Assembly (NCBI GenBank): GCA_025800305.1
Contig: JAOXRY010000284.1
Coordinates: 1-33,682 of the forward strand
DNA: 33,682 nt
Source: Campylobacterales bacterium
Lineage (GTDB): Bacteria > Campylobacterota > Campylobacteria > Campylobacterales > SZUA-545
Reading direction: 5' to 3'
A model generated the notes under the pieces. The model made no database searches and was not told the DNA's origin. It saw nothing but the letters and a program-made list of their open reading frames with translations. A program made the translations under genes and the position numbers. Shown here one piece after another: positions 1,145 to 17,909 of this stretch; position 1 is the stretch's first letter, and every line of letters starts with the position of its first letter.

Positions 1145-3022
1145 TTAGGATTCTTCATCTTGACCAACAACGTAGATCTCAAATCCCTCTTCCACATCTT
1201 CAAGACTCTTTTGTCTAATTCGTATCTCTCTTGCGTAGTCTTCCTCTTCTGGAAGATAAACATACTCTTTTGGAGGCATCATAGTTTTAAACATAATTTT
1301 ATTGTAGCCTTTCCATGTGTCCTCATTAATCACAGAAGAAGCAAGTACAACACTTTGTAACTCATTTACCTGTGCTACTTTTATTTTATGTTTTTCATCT
1401 ACTTTTTGGATCTCTTCCCGAAGTTTTTTTGCTTTTTTTAAGTCATCTTGATATGCTTTATACTTATCAACAAAGATTTTTTCAGAAGAAATACCTTTTG
1501 CTTTCTCTTTATCTAATCTTTTTTTAATCTCATCAACCCCTGGCTTATTTCTTTTAATCACATTATTTAAAGCTTGATATTTTCCTAGATAAACTTTTTT
1601 TCTAGCTTTTAATTCATTGACCTCATTAACAACTAGACGAATCTTGATTCTATCTTGCTTTGTAGCACCAGCATCCATAACAATAGTATTCTCACCACCG
1701 CTATCCATATTCTTAATATAGACTCTATTTTTAGCAAAAATTGTTACATTTGAATCTAATTCATCAATTTCTAGTTCTTCACAGTGGATTTTTCCACCTT
1801 TGGCTTTTTTTATTACTGCTTTTTTGCAGTAGAGATCTCCACCTTCAAATTGATTAATATCTGCTGTTTGACACTGTAAGAATCCTCTTAGATTATTAAC
1901 ATTGGCATCTGTACATGTTATTTTACTTGTTCCGTGGGTACTTCCATGGACAACAACATTAATAGCTTTAACTTCCGCTTTACTACCAATGTTCCCACCG
2001 ATATTGATATTCGAAGTCTCTACCTTCATATTTGTACCAATATCGTCTTCTCCTTCACCACCATTTGTTGTAATAGTAATATTCTTGTCTAGATCTGTTA
2101 CGATATTTCCTGTCTCTTTAAAGTTAATAGAGGTAACAGCCATATCCTCGCCAATTTTTAAGATCTTGTTTTTAACACTTACAAATCCCTCTTTTTTAGC
2201 ATAGTACAAAAATCCACTGTCTGTTTTTTCAATTCTTATTGTTTCTTTATCAGGTTTTAATGAGTCTTTAAAAATATCTCTTGGTCTCGTAATTGGAATA
2301 TGCTTTCCATTAAATCCTCGACCTGCAACTCCCAATGAGGACTTTTTATATTCAACAACAAGATCTCCTTCATTTACCTCTTGAACAAAACCTCTGTCTG
2401 CGTAATCGATTTTTTCATCTTCTGAAATAGTCTTTTTATTGTAATGAAAAATCATCTTATCATTATTTGTAGGAGTAGGAGCCACCCAATTAGCTAAAGG
2501 TAGCTTTATATCATCAAGAATATTGCCATGATTTTTTATCTCTTGGGCACACTCTTTTATAGTTGCTCTTAAATCATCATCTTTAACATTAACAAGCATT
2601 CCAAGTTTGATTTTTCGCTTATTTATTTCATCTATTAAAATATCTTCAATATCTGTTGTATGTTCGAAAGTTGATTCTTTTTTTAACACACCTGTAGCTT
2701 TTGTGTGGTATTTATCAACTCCTACCTCAAGACTTAGTTTAATTGGCTGTTGTGCCAATTTCGGTCTTATATTTACTTCATATGATTGTTTAATATCAAT
2801 TTTACTTGATCTTAAAAAAGCCTCATCATTATTGATTTTCTCAATTACTTTAGGGGATAATGGAACATATTTGTCTCCATTAGGAAGCTTTACTCCTGTT
2901 GATACATTTAAGATATCAAAATCAATTCTTGACGGCTGAACTTTAAATTTTTTTGAAACTTTTTTTATAAATTCTGGTATATTAGATGTCTTAGATATAA
3001 ATGGCTTAAAATCGTTTGTCAA
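1145..3022 (-). CDS. DUF342 / FapA-like protein (flagellar assembly protein A type)
   Basis: 625 aa; beta-helix-like central region (GGNIGSKAEVKAINVVVHGSTHGTSKITCTDANV), followed by a coiled-coil tail; location next to ruvA/murJ. Confidence 0.7.
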   Translation of the reverse strand: MTNDFKPFISKTSNIPEFIKKVSKKFKVQPSRIDFDILNVSTGVKLPNGDKYVPLSPKVIEKINNDEAFLRSSKIDIKQSYEVNIRPKLAQQPIKLSLEVGVDKYHTKATGVLKKESTFEHTTDIEDILIDEINKRKIKLGMLVNVKDDDLRATIKECAQEIKNHGNILDDIKLPLANWVAPTPTNNDKMIFHYNKKTISEDEKIDYADRGFVQEVNEGDLVVEYKKSSLGVAGRGFNGKHIPITRPRDIFKDSLKPDKETIRIEKTDSGFLYYAKKEGFVSVKNKILKIGEDMAVTSINFKETGNIVTDLDKNITITTNGGEGEDDIGTNMKVETSNINIGGNIGSKAEVKAINVVVHGSTHGTSKITCTDANVNNLRGFLQCQTADINQFEGGDLYCKKAVIKKAKGGKIHCEELEIDELDSNVTIFAKNRVYIKNMDSGGENTIVMDAGATKQDRIKIRLVVNEVNELKARKKVYLGKYQALNNVIKRNKPGVDEIKKRLDKEKAKGISSEKIFVDKYKAYQDDLKKAKKLREEIQKVDEKHKIKVAQVNELQSVVLASSVINEDTWKGYNKIMFKTMMPPKEYVYLPEEEDYAREIRIRQKSLEDVEEGFEIYVVGQDEES

Positions 3023-12722: not shown

Positions 12723-14138
12723 ATGAAAAAAATAAATAAATACCTAATTACAATTCTTTTTCTACCAACAACAATACTGTTTTCATCGGTAGAGAAAAAA
12801 ACCATAGAAGATATCATTCCAATGACCATGGCAAATATACGAGGTCATCAAGCTCTTTATAATGAGGGTTGGTTTATCATAAGTTCCTCTAAAGATGCCT
12901 TTGAATATGCCCATCAAAAGTCTATTTTAAGTTCAAAAGATGCACTTTTAAAAACCTATAAAAGCGTTGAGACAAACTCTTTACAATACAAAAGTAATAT
13001 GAAGAGTAATCTTCTTTCAACTCAAACAGACACAAAAGAAATCTTTGAAAAAGGGACAGAACACAGTAAAAATATTTTAAGAACAACCCACAGACTAGGC
13101 AAAATACAATATGACTTCGCCAATAGAAACTTTCAAAAAGCATGGGGGAAATTTTCCAAAGGAAATATCTATTATGAAAAAAGAACAGCCAAAGATCTAA
13201 AAGAGTTAAAAGATCTTCCAAATAACTACTACAAAGATATCAAAGATGACTTTTCCAATATCTATAAAATCACAGACTCTGTAAGTTCTGACTTTGGAGA
13301 TGATATTGGTGATTACTGGGCAAGTGGCTTTAAAAAATCACAAGATGAATTTCAAAAAGAGTATGAAGAGTCTGGAAAAAGTTCCAATACACTAGTCGCT
13401 CTTGTTGATATACTTCAAGGATATGGAAAATCAATTTACTATGGGCTTTTCAAACCAACAGCACAAACAGCAGTAGATGCAACAGCCACTACAGCAGTAA
13501 GTGTAGGAAAAGCTATTGTAATTCCAACAAGTGGAGCTATCTCTATTACAGGCAGAACAATTGAGTCTCTAGGATTAACCGTCTACTACACAACTTCACT
13601 GGGAGTAAAAGTTATCTCTCCTACTGTTGAAGCTGGTTTTTTGACAGGTGTCTCTATCCTCTCTTTAGGAACTTCTGCTATTACTTACACTACAGGAGGA
13701 ACTATTGGAGCTGTTAATCAAGTTGCAACAACCGTTGCTTCTCCTGTTATTGCAACAGGTAAAGCAGTTGGAAAAAGTACAGTAGATACAGGAAAATATG
13801 TCTCTTTTATGGCTTATGATAGTGTATCAGGAACATCAAAGGTCATATATAACCAACTAGCTTCTGGTGTAGTATTAGGATACAACGGATTAACTGCTAT
13901 TCCTACCCACTTAGCAATGGGAGTAGTTGATACTGTTGTTTTAGCATATGATGGTCCAAGACTTGTCATTGCAACAGTTAATGGAGAAGTAGATGGTTTC
14001 TCTTCTGCAGGTCTTCCTGCTGGAACGGTTGTAGATCTTCAAAAATTACAAAACGAAAACAACATCAATATTAAAATCATTTCAAAAGATCCCAAGGTTA
14101 TTGAAAATGTTCTTGGTTCTATGAAGAAGGATCTATAA
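12723..14138 (+). CDS. Exported 11-residue-repeat protein, unknown function (paralog of the downstream ORF)
   Basis: 471 aa; N-terminal signal-peptide-like segment, charged region with 11-residue spacing (SKDALLKTYKS/VETNSLQYKSN/MKSNLLSTQTD/TKEIFEKGTEH/SKNILRTTHRL), then hydrophobic Gly/Ser/Thr region; C-terminal GPRLVIATVNGE...AGTVVDLQKLQNENN matches GPKWVVYAVTGN...GAVVDLEKIQNRGS in the next ORF. Confidence 0.8.
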   Translation: MKKINKYLITILFLPTTILFSSVEKKTIEDIIPMTMANIRGHQALYNEGWFIISSSKDAFEYAHQKSILSSKDALLKTYKSVETNSLQYKSNMKSNLLSTQTDTKEIFEKGTEHSKNILRTTHRLGKIQYDFANRNFQKAWGKFSKGNIYYEKRTAKDLKELKDLPNNYYKDIKDDFSNIYKITDSVSSDFGDDIGDYWASGFKKSQDEFQKEYEESGKSSNTLVALVDILQGYGKSIYYGLFKPTAQTAVDATATTAVSVGKAIVIPTSGAISITGRTIESLGLTVYYTTSLGVKVISPTVEAGFLTGVSILSLGTSAITYTTGGTIGAVNQVATTVASPVIATGKAVGKSTVDTGKYVSFMAYDSVSGTSKVIYNQLASGVVLGYNGLTAIPTHLAMGVVDTVVLAYDGPRLVIATVNGEVDGFSSAGLPAGTVVDLQKLQNENNINIKIISKDPKVIENVLGSMKKDL

Positions 14139-16504
14139 TGAAAAAACTATTTTTAATCATTTCAGCTTTTATACTTACCAGTTGTACTTTTAGTGATCCA
14201 GATCCTTTAAAAAACACAAAAAAACTTGTTAAAGAGGGTCATATCTCTTTATATAAAAATGGTGCATTTAAAGTTCCTAGTACCTCTATCTATCTTATTC
14301 CTCCAGGTCCGGAGCCTCTTGAACTTGCCAAAGAGTTAGCAGGTGTCAAAGCAAAAGAATCTTTTGATGTTGCGATCAAAAAAGCTTATGAAGCTGTATA
14401 TATTATCCCTAAAGGAACACAACTTTCAAAAGAGGTTGCTACAGATATTTTCGGTACTGCTGAATCTATCGGAGATGGAATCACTAATAGATCTAGAACA
14501 ACAGGAAACCTGATTATTGAAAAGTCATTCTTCCATGGAAAGAAATATTTTACTAAATCTTTTGAAAATGGTCTAATAGGAGGAGAAAAAGTCTATCAAA
14601 CAGGAGAAGATATCGAAGAACTTTTCTCTTATGATGAAACATCTGGTGTAAATACAGGAAAAAATCTTATAGCTTCCAGCCCTGAAAGTGGGTTCTATGT
14701 TGCAAAAAAAGGTTACAGACTAGGGAAAGATCTTACATCAACTAGTATAGAGATTGGAAAGGAGTTAGCACGTAGGGGAATAGTCTTAGGAAAAGAGGCG
14801 ATTGAAGAAGGTTTTTACGTAGGTGCTGGAACAATCAAAGCTAGTAATAAATTAGGAATTGAGTTAATTAAAAAAAGTCCAAAAACAGGAAAGAAAATTA
14901 TCGATAAAAGCTTCTCCTCTGCCAATAAGATTATCAACTCCTCTTCAGATGTAGGAAGAAATCTTTTTAACTCTTCTATAAAAACTGCTACAAAAATAAA
15001 TAACTACAGTGAGGAGAAAGGAAAAAATAATGCAATTTATGCAAAAGACTCTTTCATTTTAGGGTATGCAAAACTTCCTAAGACATTAGGAAAAAGAGCA
15101 GATAAAATAAATGAGTACCTTACATTAGATGAGTTTACCCAAGACTATAAAATAGCAGATAAACAAAGAGAAAAAAACTCATTATACTTTACAGAGATTC
15201 TTTCAGACACAGTTGATAACTACTCTAGAAATGTATCATCATCTTTTTCAAAAGCAAAAGAAGAGCTAGGAACATACAAAGAGAGTGGTGTTGCTTTTGC
15301 CTCAATAAAATCTCTTCGATGGGTACTGCAAGGAATCTTTTATGATGGGCTAATCAAACCCATTACAAACCTAACTACAGGTTCTTTAGGGTATATCGCT
15401 GTTAACGGTGTTGTATTTCCTGTTATGGTTGTTACAAATAACGGAATTACTATGTCAAAAATTGCGGTAGGAGTAACATATAATTCTGCCATTGGAGCCT
15501 ATGAAATTGTTGCACCAACAGCAGAGGCATCCCTTGCTGGACTTCTCTCAACTGCCCAATATATAGGAGGGAAAGTAGCCTCTACAGCAGTTATTGGCGC
15601 AGGAACTGTAGGAAGTGCTGGAATTATTGGAGGAGGGACTGTCCTTGGAGCTGGAGCAACTGTTGGACAAGTAGCAGTAGGATCTGGTGTAGCAGCTGGA
15701 GGAACAGCTATTGGAACTGGAATTGTCGCAGGAAAAACTATCGAAGGTGGAGCTAGAGCAGTAGGAGGAACTATTGCTGGTGCTGGTGTCAGTGCTGGAG
15801 GAACAGTTGCTGGTGGAGCTACAGTCGCTGGTGGTGTTATTGCTGGTGGTGGAACAACCGCTGGAAAAGCTATTCTTGGTACAGGTGTGATAGCTGGTAA
15901 CTATGGAGCAAAAGGAGCTATTGAATCTACAGGCTTTGTTCTTGGAAAAGGGGTTAAATACATAGGCGCACCTATTACAACTGCAGGTATAACAATTTCT
16001 CAAGCCTCTTATGGTGTAGTTGCTGGAGGAGTTGGGGTAACTGCTGGAAGTGGAGTTGTTGCCATAGGAGAGATCTCATCCTTAACAACAAAAACAGTTG
16101 GAGGAGTAGCCGCAGGTGGAACATTTGTAGGAGGGACAACAGCCAGTGTTGTTACAGGAACTGGACTTGGTGCTTATCAGCTTTCAAAAGCTGTTGTGGT
16201 TCCAGCTGGATACACTCTTTCTAGTGGAGTTGTCTTAAGTTATGGTACTGTTTCTCATTTATCTGCCCACGCTATCTTAGGTGTATCTGACGCAGCTTAT
16301 CTTGTATTGTCTCTAGAAGGTCCTAAATGGGTTGTTTACGCTGTAACTGGGAACCTAAAAGATGATGATAATATAATCGAAGGTGCTGTTGTAGATCTTG
16401 AAAAGATCCAAAATAGAGGCTCTATTATTAAAAGAGTTGAATTAAATAAAGAACAGATTGAGAAAGTAGTCCAATCAACCTATTCTACAAAGGAAGTTCA
16501 ATAA
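14138..16504 (+). CDS. Putative lipoprotein with long 11-residue-repeat region and Gly-rich hydrophobic repeat zone, unknown function
   Basis: 788 aa; lipobox FILTSC; 11-residue register in both charged and glycine-rich zones; TAATG overlap with the upstream paralog. Confidence 0.82.
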   Translation: MKKLFLIISAFILTSCTFSDPDPLKNTKKLVKEGHISLYKNGAFKVPSTSIYLIPPGPEPLELAKELAGVKAKESFDVAIKKAYEAVYIIPKGTQLSKEVATDIFGTAESIGDGITNRSRTTGNLIIEKSFFHGKKYFTKSFENGLIGGEKVYQTGEDIEELFSYDETSGVNTGKNLIASSPESGFYVAKKGYRLGKDLTSTSIEIGKELARRGIVLGKEAIEEGFYVGAGTIKASNKLGIELIKKSPKTGKKIIDKSFSSANKIINSSSDVGRNLFNSSIKTATKINNYSEEKGKNNAIYAKDSFILGYAKLPKTLGKRADKINEYLTLDEFTQDYKIADKQREKNSLYFTEILSDTVDNYSRNVSSSFSKAKEELGTYKESGVAFASIKSLRWVLQGIFYDGLIKPITNLTTGSLGYIAVNGVVFPVMVVTNNGITMSKIAVGVTYNSAIGAYEIVAPTAEASLAGLLSTAQYIGGKVASTAVIGAGTVGSAGIIGGGTVLGAGATVGQVAVGSGVAAGGTAIGTGIVAGKTIEGGARAVGGTIAGAGVSAGGTVAGGATVAGGVIAGGGTTAGKAILGTGVIAGNYGAKGAIESTGFVLGKGVKYIGAPITTAGITISQASYGVVAGGVGVTAGSGVVAIGEISSLTTKTVGGVAAGGTFVGGTTASVVTGTGLGAYQLSKAVVVPAGYTLSSGVVLSYGTVSHLSAHAILGVSDAAYLVLSLEGPKWVVYAVTGNLKDDDNIIEGAVVDLEKIQNRGSIIKRVELNKEQIEKVVQSTYSTKEVQ
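14438..15060 (+). repeat. Degenerate 33-bp / 11-residue repeats, charged type (consensus about G-K-x-x-x-x-x-S-x-x-x)
   Basis: Consecutive 11-mers: GDGITNRSRTT GNLIIEKSFFH GKKYFTKSFEN ... GKDLTSTSIEI GKELARRGIVL GKEAIEEGFYV GAGTIKASNKL GIELIKKSPKT GKKIIDKSFSS ANKIINSSSDV GRNLFNSSIKT. Confidence 0.8.
15538..16210 (+). repeat. Degenerate 33-bp / 11-residue repeats, glycine-rich hydrophobic type
   Basis: Consecutive 11-mers: KVASTAVIGAG TVGSAGIIGGG TVLGAGATVGQ VAVGSGVAAGG TAIGTGIVAGK TIEGGARAVGG TIAGAGVSAGG TVAGGATVAGG VIAGGGTTAGK AILGTGVIAGN. Confidence 0.82.
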
Positions 16505-17909
16505 CAAAAACAGCTCTCTCTTGACTGTTTCTCACACTGATTTTACCACCCATACTTCCTTCAATAATCATCTTGGCAAGGTTCAGACCAATTCCTGTTC
16601 CTTGCTCTCCTTTTGTTGTAAAATCCAAATCAAAGATCTTCTCAATAATATCTTCTGGAATTCCTCCACCATTATCAGTAATTGTTAAGATCGCTTTATC
16701 ATCTTCAACCATCGTATCAATTTTTATCATTGGCTTTTCAGGGCTTTTCTCAACAAGAACATCTTTTGCATTGTTCACTATGTTCATTACAACTTGTTCT
16801 AGTTCATTTTCAAACCCATTGATCATAATATCCTCTTTAACTTCTACTTTAAGGGCAATTCCTCTTTTACTAATCTGACTAGATATTAAAGAGAGAGATT
16901 TATCAATAGCTTTATTTAAAGAAAATGGTTTGGGTATTTTGTCTGATCTAAAGAAATTTCTAAGTTCATCAATACTCGATGACATAAACCTAATTCTTTC
17001 ATGAACAATTTTTGATGTAGCTGCCAGTGACTCCTCGGTCATCTCTTTATACTCGTAACTCTCTTGAATTTCATCAATGGAAAGACTTATTGCATTTAGT
17101 GGTTGCTTTAACTGATGGGCAATTATACTTATTAGCTCTCCTAAGGAGGCTTTTTTTGCTTGTTTAAAAAGAATCTCTTTTTGTTTTTCATTTGTCTTAA
17201 TTTGTCTTGCGACTTCTTTTTCAAGATAGTGTCTTAAACTAATCTCTCTATATATATAAATTAATACAAGAGCTATAATTACAAAACCGAAAAAATTTAT
17301 CATCATATAGATAATTGAGATCTCTGCTAAAAAGGCATTTTTTGTATAAGAGACAATATAGGCAATTGTCTTTTTATCCTTGATATTTTTTATTGGAACA
17401 AAAGCAGTAACCCCAACCTCATCGCCTATTTTGTCATAAAGGGCGAAGTTTTTAGATTCTTCCATATTTTTTTCAATAAGTGTTCTATTTGGTTGGATAA
17501 TATTTGTTTCAAAATTTGATTTATCGTCGTAGCTATTTTTTGCAAAAATACTCATGTATTTTCTATTTTCAATACTTTGTACAAATTGTAGTTTGTCGTT
17601 TTTTCTTTTCCAAACCAGTGGATTAAAAACCTGCTTTTTTACAAGAAAATGAAACTTAATCATATTAACTTCATTAATAGTTTCTTCCATTGATTCTGCT
17701 GAATATCCAATATCATAAGATCTTAAATATTTTCCATCTATTGTATTGTCATAGTTTGTTACTTTAAAATTAATTCGTAGTTCATTAATCACATCAGAAA
17801 GCTCTTTTTGTATTAGCTTCTCTTTATATGTGTAGTTAAGAGTAAAAATTCCCCCAAAAAGGGCTAGAAAAATAATTAGAAAGAGAATAGTTAGTTTTTT
17901 TTGAGACAT
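16485..17909 (-). CDS. Membrane sensor histidine kinase
   Basis: 474 aa; N-terminal TM, periplasmic sensor region, second TM, H-box IIAHQLKQPLNAISLSIDEI, N-box NIVNNAKDVL, G-boxes DNGGGIPE and GTGIGLNLAK. Confidence 0.88.
   Translation of the reverse strand: MSQKKLTILFLIIFLALFGGIFTLNYTYKEKLIQKELSDVINELRINFKVTNYDNTIDGKYLRSYDIGYSAESMEETINEVNMIKFHFLVKKQVFNPLVWKRKNDKLQFVQSIENRKYMSIFAKNSYDDKSNFETNIIQPNRTLIEKNMEESKNFALYDKIGDEVGVTAFVPIKNIKDKKTIAYIVSYTKNAFLAEISIIYMMINFFGFVIIALVLIYIYREISLRHYLEKEVARQIKTNEKQKEILFKQAKKASLGELISIIAHQLKQPLNAISLSIDEIQESYEYKEMTEESLAATSKIVHERIRFMSSSIDELRNFFRSDKIPKPFSLNKAIDKSLSLISSQISKRGIALKVEVKEDIMINGFENELEQVVMNIVNNAKDVLVEKSPEKPMIKIDTMVEDDKAILTITDNGGGIPEDIIEKIFDLDFTTKGEQGTGIGLNLAKMIIEGSMGGKISVRNSQERAVFVIELPL

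Follow-up and report, generated by a model that had tools for sequence, protein, structure and literature searches.

The window analyzed here is a 33,682-nucleotide contig (JAOXRY010000284.1; assembly GCA_025800305.1) of a fragmentary Campylobacterota genome (464 contigs, ~79% complete). It carries two adjacent genes, here called A and B, which the initial annotation had described as a coupled pair of exported proteins built mainly from 11-residue repeats. Both open reading frames were confirmed at the positions listed in Table 1, and the one-base stop/start overlap between them is likely to couple their translation. The two proteins are full-length paralogues (HHalign E values, 6.6e-36 and 2.3e-36) and, judged from their sequences, an obligate exported pair of an undescribed family. 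B is rather probably a lipid-anchored, antiparallel hairpin whose two arms are 11-residue (hendecad) repeats of two different chemistries, with A as its short-armed partner.

Table 1. Features of the A/B gene pair (positions refer to the window)
Feature	Position	Strand	Description and basis
Gene A	12723..14138	+	471-aa exported protein, short-armed paralogue of B, from a length-rigid family; open reading frame and signal-peptide-like N terminus
A first arm, residues 49-147	12867..13163	+	Counterpart of the B charged arm (HHalign); anchor distances
A second arm, residues 301-382 (81 aa)	13623..13868	+	Counterpart of the B Gly arm; anchor distances, HHalign
TAATG stop/start overlap of A and B	14136..14140	+	One base common to both genes; sequence
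Gene B	14138..16504	+	Lipoprotein of 788 aa bearing two hendecad arms
B signal peptide and lipobox	14138..14185	+	Lipobox LTSC, Cys16; Asp absent at +2
B N-terminal family motif, residues 22-47	14201..14278	+	DPLKNTKKLVKEGHISLYKNGAFKVP; near-invariant in alignment
B charged arm, G93-F306	14414..15055	+	213 aa versus 118 in unexpanded relatives (+95)
B inter-arm segment, F306-P460	15053..15517	+	Proposed hairpin tip; 152-156 aa in 28/28 B proteins
B Gly/Ala-rich arm, P460-Y608	15515..15961	+	148 aa versus 60 in unexpanded relatives (+88 = 8 x 11)
B C-terminal domain, residues 608-788	15959..16501	+	Near-invariant LSLEGPKWVVYAV; proposed base, common to A

Relatives were collected from a sister genome, two Leptospira plasmids, and a screen across genomes of bacteria and archaea (16 loci), followed by whole-genome searches. 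Residue-identity autocorrelation was scored against shuffles that preserve local composition, a check for lag 11 that had been proposed at the outset. A peak above the shuffles was found in both proteins: the three best lags of B were 11, 22, and 33 (z scores, 8.2, 6.6, and 6.3), and lag 11 was present in its charged and Gly halves taken separately (z scores, 5.8 and 5.7), whereas the signal in A was weaker (lag 11, 2.7; lag 22, 3.1). The best lag was 11 in the family averages of both A (14 proteins) and B (16 proteins), so the period belongs to the family. Both ladders of 11-mers quoted in the initial annotation are literally present in B, and the description of the proteins as built mainly from such units suits B but is less apt for A. 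The claim of two repeat chemistries within one chain also held.

Helices built from hendecads are close to straight, and their crowded cores favor small residues where knobs meet knobs (PMC9858780). Hydropathy and charge in the B charged zone repeated every 3.65 residues (11/3), like those of straight alpha-helices, which together with the period of 11 supports the hendecad helices first proposed for this locus. The core of the charged arm has Gly/Ala at position a, Ile/Leu/Val at d, Ile/Val/Ser/Ala at e, and Ser/Gly/Ala at h, with charge on the opposite face, and reads as a canonical hendecad pattern, in which small residues occupy a and h. In the Gly zone, a hydropathy period of 3.65 to 3.70 above shuffles was found in five expanded homologues (L020, L086, L118, L119, and L120), and a helix in the Gly arm of the window's own B is suggested mainly by these homologues.

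In the alignment, the B proteins of Leptospira biflexa and of the sister genome lacked exactly the two stretches that hold the window's 11-mers, and distances between invariant residues were therefore measured in 28 full-length B proteins. Three segments had zero length variance (408-460, 52 residues; 608-680, 72 residues; 680-731, 51 residues), and segment 306-408 was 100 to 104 residues long. Only two segments were strongly variable, the charged zone (G93-F306, 86 to 217 residues) and the Gly zone (P460-Y608, 38 to 159 residues), and they covaried approximately 1:1, mostly in steps of 11, around common lengths of 118 (charged) and 60 (Gly). Expressed as charged/Gly change relative to these lengths, most unexpanded proteins stood at 0/0 and one at -1/0, while expanded proteins stood at +31/+33, +53/+55, +66/+66 (twice), and, in four Bdellovibrionota, +99/+98 or +99/+99. 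Counted in hendecads, L117 stands at 0/0, L119 at +5/+5, and L086 at +9/+9. Apart from the values -4 and 98, the Gly zone changed by multiples of 11 throughout. Independent contrasts of the two lengths, calculated on a tree built from the rigid B regions alone (some deep branches of which had low support), gave r = 0.998 and a slope of 0.966, and 0/20,000 permutations reached as high a value. Expanded proteins stood beside unexpanded relatives at several places in this tree (window/L022, L118-L119/L029, and L120-L121/L027), so at least four lineages expanded separately. A one-sided expansion by several hendecads was found in none of the 28 proteins; in a paired-indel test, the two arms had grown or shrunk by equal numbers of repeats while the tip stayed fixed.

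The repeat units themselves are matched between the arms. Two Nitrospirota proteins (L120 and L121) carry three copies of a 33-residue block in each zone, and two others (L118 and L119) carry tandem 11-residue repeats in both zones, with sequences that differ between the zones in every case. Counted from the middle segment, the arrays of the two zones lie at similar distances, 18-118 and 16-110 residues in L120 and 11-113 and 20-123 residues in L121. At the DNA level, arrays were present in both arms of three Nitrospirota genes (33 bp in L118 and L119, 99 bp in L121), and none was still recognizable in either zone of L120. The only recognizable 33-bp array in the window is a short one (15764-15849) within the B Gly arm.

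Protein A does not take part in these expansions. Its segments were almost constant in length in 26 homologues, whatever the length of the partner B, with no arm expansion and a first arm of 98 residues in nearly all of them. By arithmetic on anchor distances, with the gaps confirmed by HHalign, the two A arms are ~74 and ~67 residues shorter than those of the common B and ~42 and ~45 residues shorter than those of the shortest B (L089, 547 aa). As a paralogue, A thereby fits the paired-arm rule of B. Wherever the upstream side of B could be read, A lay directly upstream of it, at a spacing of -29 to +26 bp. At one locus (L116, 4845-6483), A is present as two open frames (132 and 374 residues) before an intact B, owing to a frameshift or a sequencing error.

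We infer the hairpin from evolution, that is, from the length coupling and the fixed connector, and the two zones seem better read as length-matched arms of one stalk than as consecutive zones. The B chain would run outward from its lipid anchor along the amphipathic charged hendecad helix, turn in the conserved tip of ~154 residues, and return through the Gly/Ala-rich hendecad helix to the conserved C-terminal base beside the anchor, with both arms packed alongside each other as nearly straight, antiparallel helices. Any hendecad added to or removed from one arm would need a match in the other, each such step changing the reach by ~1.65 nm. A would share this fold, its arms being short and constant in length, and probably forms a complex with B as a partner at the base. 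Arms running parallel within one chain were rejected, since the inter-arm link is fixed in length and would have to grow with the arms for a parallel course to be possible whatever the arm length; gains of an odd number of hendecads (3, 5, and 9) speak against a model in which each arm doubles back on itself.

The export and lipoprotein nature of B, as initially annotated, is supported by its signal peptide and by a lipobox whose Cys is found in 27/28 B proteins, with no Asp at +2. B would be lipidated at this Cys, which is the putative anchor site. Under the gammaproteobacterial +2 rule, the absence of Asp at +2 suggests the outer membrane, and B is for this reason probably anchored there. 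The most divergent B (L088, 5311-7590; Bdellovibrionota) keeps the arm-length rule and has no lipobox Cys; this protein is perhaps a nonlipidated variant, or its start may be misplaced.

The role of B is likely mechanical, that of a lipid-anchored stalk holding a conserved tip at a defined distance from the membrane, and it could serve as a spacer, a tether, or a surface spike. Among Nitrospirota relatives, each arm varies by as much as 66 residues (~10 nm), a spread that seems larger than the variation expected in periplasm width and may slightly favor a projecting stalk over a strict envelope-spanning tether.

Several observations weigh against the hairpin. Among the expanded proteins, the window's B shows the poorest match between its arms (+95 versus +88), contraction was unequal in five Leptospiraceae (about -10/-4) and in L089 (-32/-22), and the mirror placement of repeats is clear in some members only and not in L086 to L088. 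Helix formation is disfavored by Gly and beta-branched residues, and the hydropathy period of the Gly arm in the window's B is 5.45, not 3.65, and arises from two Gly stripes. Structure prediction, which had been proposed as a check, gave no usable model: with 14 to 15 sequences, the mean AlphaFold2 confidence score (predicted local distance difference test) was 40 for A and 38 for B, and ~20 in the Gly zone of B, too low to interpret. Nor does any conserved neighbor point to a function.

Length coupling is required equally by an oligomeric two-layer tube of several neighboring B hairpins, in which the Gly arms would form a tight inner ring with a narrow polar stripe facing the lumen and the charged arms would lie outside, making a conduit of adjustable length that crosses or leaves the envelope. 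Such a tube would agree with the packing of hendecads, which is straight and less crowded when core residues are small or the oligomer is of higher order (PMC9858780), and with the homologue Gly arm, most of whose surface is small or hydrophobic, with Lys, Gln, and Glu at the adjacent wheel positions 3, 7, and 10 only, fitting a mostly buried helix. We nonetheless consider the tube unlikely, as hardly any polar stripe is seen in the Gly arm of the window and no transporter or exporter gene is conserved near the pair. It is similarly doubtful that B hairpins join through the Gly arms to make a hendecad shaft, hollow or solid, on a base of A, with its length tuned by duplicating equal numbers of hendecads in both arms; were this true, the shaft would be an unrecognized envelope machine, an extracytoplasmic molecular ruler that can be adjusted genetically.

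The initial annotation had suggested a soluble or lipid-surface helical rod switching to a tightly packed, possibly membrane-inserted Gly-zipper assembly, taken here as a bundle or pore distinct from the charged rod. The Gly zone is indeed rich in Gly, Ala, and Val, with two Gly stripes as in Gly-zipper packing, but the proposal is very improbable, since it leaves unexplained the 1:1 coupling of zone lengths around a fixed middle segment in 28 homologues. Membrane insertion of the zone was rejected on hydropathy, which over 19 residues seldom exceeds 1.6 and is thus rarely that of a transmembrane segment, and on the composition of many homologues, whose Gly zones contain Lys and Glu repeats (for example, GGYVAGKAVEG in L118) and extend up to 159 residues.

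A further rival makes the Gly zone a beta-structure or polyglycine-type solenoid of 11-residue coils in place of a helix, with coils matched in both zones, and we give it the same very low probability. Gly and hydrophobic residues in the window's Gly zone repeat with a period of 5.5, not 3.67, lag 4 is below chance, and AlphaFold assigned no secondary structure to the Gly zone, all of which would suit a solenoid; the hydropathy period of 3.65 to 3.70, above shuffles, in L020, L086, L118, L119, and L120 does not, and the other (charged) zone is clearly helical. Least probable of all are zones without contact, that is, slippage-prone repeats in flexible linkers whose total length is under selection or drifts: hendecads are prone to amplification, FilP/Scy being examples (PMC9858780), and the DNA shows that certain arrays are recent, but selection on total length would give compensating zones rather than a joint increase, drift would give one-sided expansions of several hendecads, of which the 28 proteins have none, and the type of repeat unit matches between the arms.

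No family was found for A, B, or their relatives in profile scans of Pfam, NCBIfam, PHROGs, and PADLOC (for PADLOC, whose profiles represent anti-phage defense proteins, none at an E value of 0.1), in agreement with the initial failure to place the proteins. Matches to the signaling domain of methyl-accepting chemotaxis proteins (MCPs) were absent from Pfam and NCBIfam scans of A, B, and relatives, as were matches to HlyD-type lipoyl and beta-barrel domains (HlyD/AcrA/EmrA), and a search of a phage database gave no match. A weak Pfam match (PF07464; E value, 0.007) in 1/16 B members was not significant over the family. Profile searches of PDB with A and B returned only generic designed helical bundles, spectrin, and apolipophorin at weak E values (0.28 for apolipophorin-III against the A profile), and these were rejected as helix background. 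In the literature, no paper on the A/B genes was found, and L. biflexa papers mention plasmid p74, which carries the pair, only generally. Martinez-Goikoetxea and Lupas reportedly surveyed hendecad families in 2023, and the A/B family may appear in that survey.

The adjacent pair was found in ~30 genomes of Campylobacterota, Nitrospirota, Bdellovibrionota, Geobacteraceae, Myxococcota, gammaproteobacteria, and Leptospiraceae, the last including plasmids p74 (L. biflexa) and pE30-1 (L. kobayashii). It was present in 21/296 genomes of Nitrospirota, 5/129 of the class in Bdellovibrionota, 3/30 of Leptospirales, 2/141 of the order of Geobacteraceae, and 1/284 of Myxococcota, in addition to gammaproteobacteria. 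Within Campylobacterota, 2/15 genomes of the window's family had the pair, and a phylum-wide sample (397 genomes) gave the window's own genome plus one marginal match (E value, 6e-4). On this host distribution, the family is rare, scattered, and old. Roughly 68% of p74 genes are upregulated in late biofilm (PMC4863578), a figure too unspecific to use here. B is split in one Nitrospirota genome (G863, contig C8; L122 and L123 at ~492 kb and ~770 kb), where A and the first ~140 residues of B lie ~278 kb from the rest; the break falls in the charged arm and reflects a rearrangement or a misassembly. Four further Nitrospirota genomes (G816, G838, G1011, and G1015) contain frames of 83 to 123 residues matching only the C-terminal ~55 to 85 residues of B; by their coordinates these are well inside contigs, and they are remnants or a stand-alone C-terminal domain.

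In the window, FliI is encoded upstream of the pair and a histidine kinase downstream. The kinase gene (16485-17909, minus strand) is convergent with B and overlaps its 3' end by 20 bp; the sister genome and p74 also have related sensor kinases close to A and B, but these belong to a large common family. On both Leptospira plasmids (L018, pE30-1; L019, p74), A and B are followed in identical order by genes for a GGDEF diguanylate cyclase, a Ser/Thr kinase (named homoserine kinase in a 2008 paper), and an RNA methyltransferase. Neighbors were common only to close relatives, so the pair looks self-sufficient, and on the same ground a functional link to FliI, the histidine kinase, or the Leptospira GGDEF protein and Ser/Thr kinase was rejected. 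Elsewhere in the window (1145-3022), a 625-residue protein with a FapA N-terminal domain (PF20250) adjoins the RuvA and MurJ genes.

Two zones ~150 residues apart and of different chemistry have kept equal numbers of 11-residue units through several independent expansions. Evolution here reports on physical pairing with unusual clarity, in a family that has neither structure nor name and whose sequences are too few for AlphaFold. Should the hairpin prove correct, the family would offer a natural series of stalks of ~6 to 24 nm for asking how cells set envelope reach or spacing, and would show how paired coiled-coil arms evolve through presumably mismatched intermediates. The presence of the pair (LBF_RS18705/LBF_RS18700 in strain Patoc) on p74 of L. 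biflexa, a saprophyte grown in the laboratory, makes the family experimentally accessible.

The closest known systems include the cytoplasmic hairpins of MCPs: their antiparallel two-arm helices fall into length classes of 12 to 32 paired heptads (~10.5 Å per pair) that differ by paired repeat units in both arms (PMC6628036). MCPs nevertheless use heptads rather than hendecads, signal in the cytoplasm, have a conserved kinase-binding tip, and have no sequence match to A or B. The periplasmic adaptors AcrA, MacA, and EmrA are, like the proposed B, exported helical hairpins with two matched coiled-coil arms of variable length (47 to 127 Å; PMC4158417), but theirs are heptads joined to lipoyl and beta-barrel domains, for which A and B have no Pfam match, and no efflux transporter is conserved near the A/B pair. 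FilP and Scy share long 11-residue repeats, small core residues, and growth by hendecad amplification (PMC9858780), and differ in being cytoplasmic single rods of Gram-positive bacteria, with neither export nor a second matched arm. In periscope proteins, the number of repeats sets the length of a surface stalk that projects a tip (PMC8201768), as may be the case in B, although one run varies there and two covarying zones vary in B. Apolipophorin-III and apolipoproteins have an amphipathic 11-residue periodicity without the paired-arm rule, and the PF07464 match is isolated. The length rule itself has precedents in chemoreceptor and periplasmic adaptor hairpins and in periscope proteins; the new elements are the family, its reliance on hendecads, the strongly contrasting chemistry of the two arms, and the closeness of their coupling across phyla.

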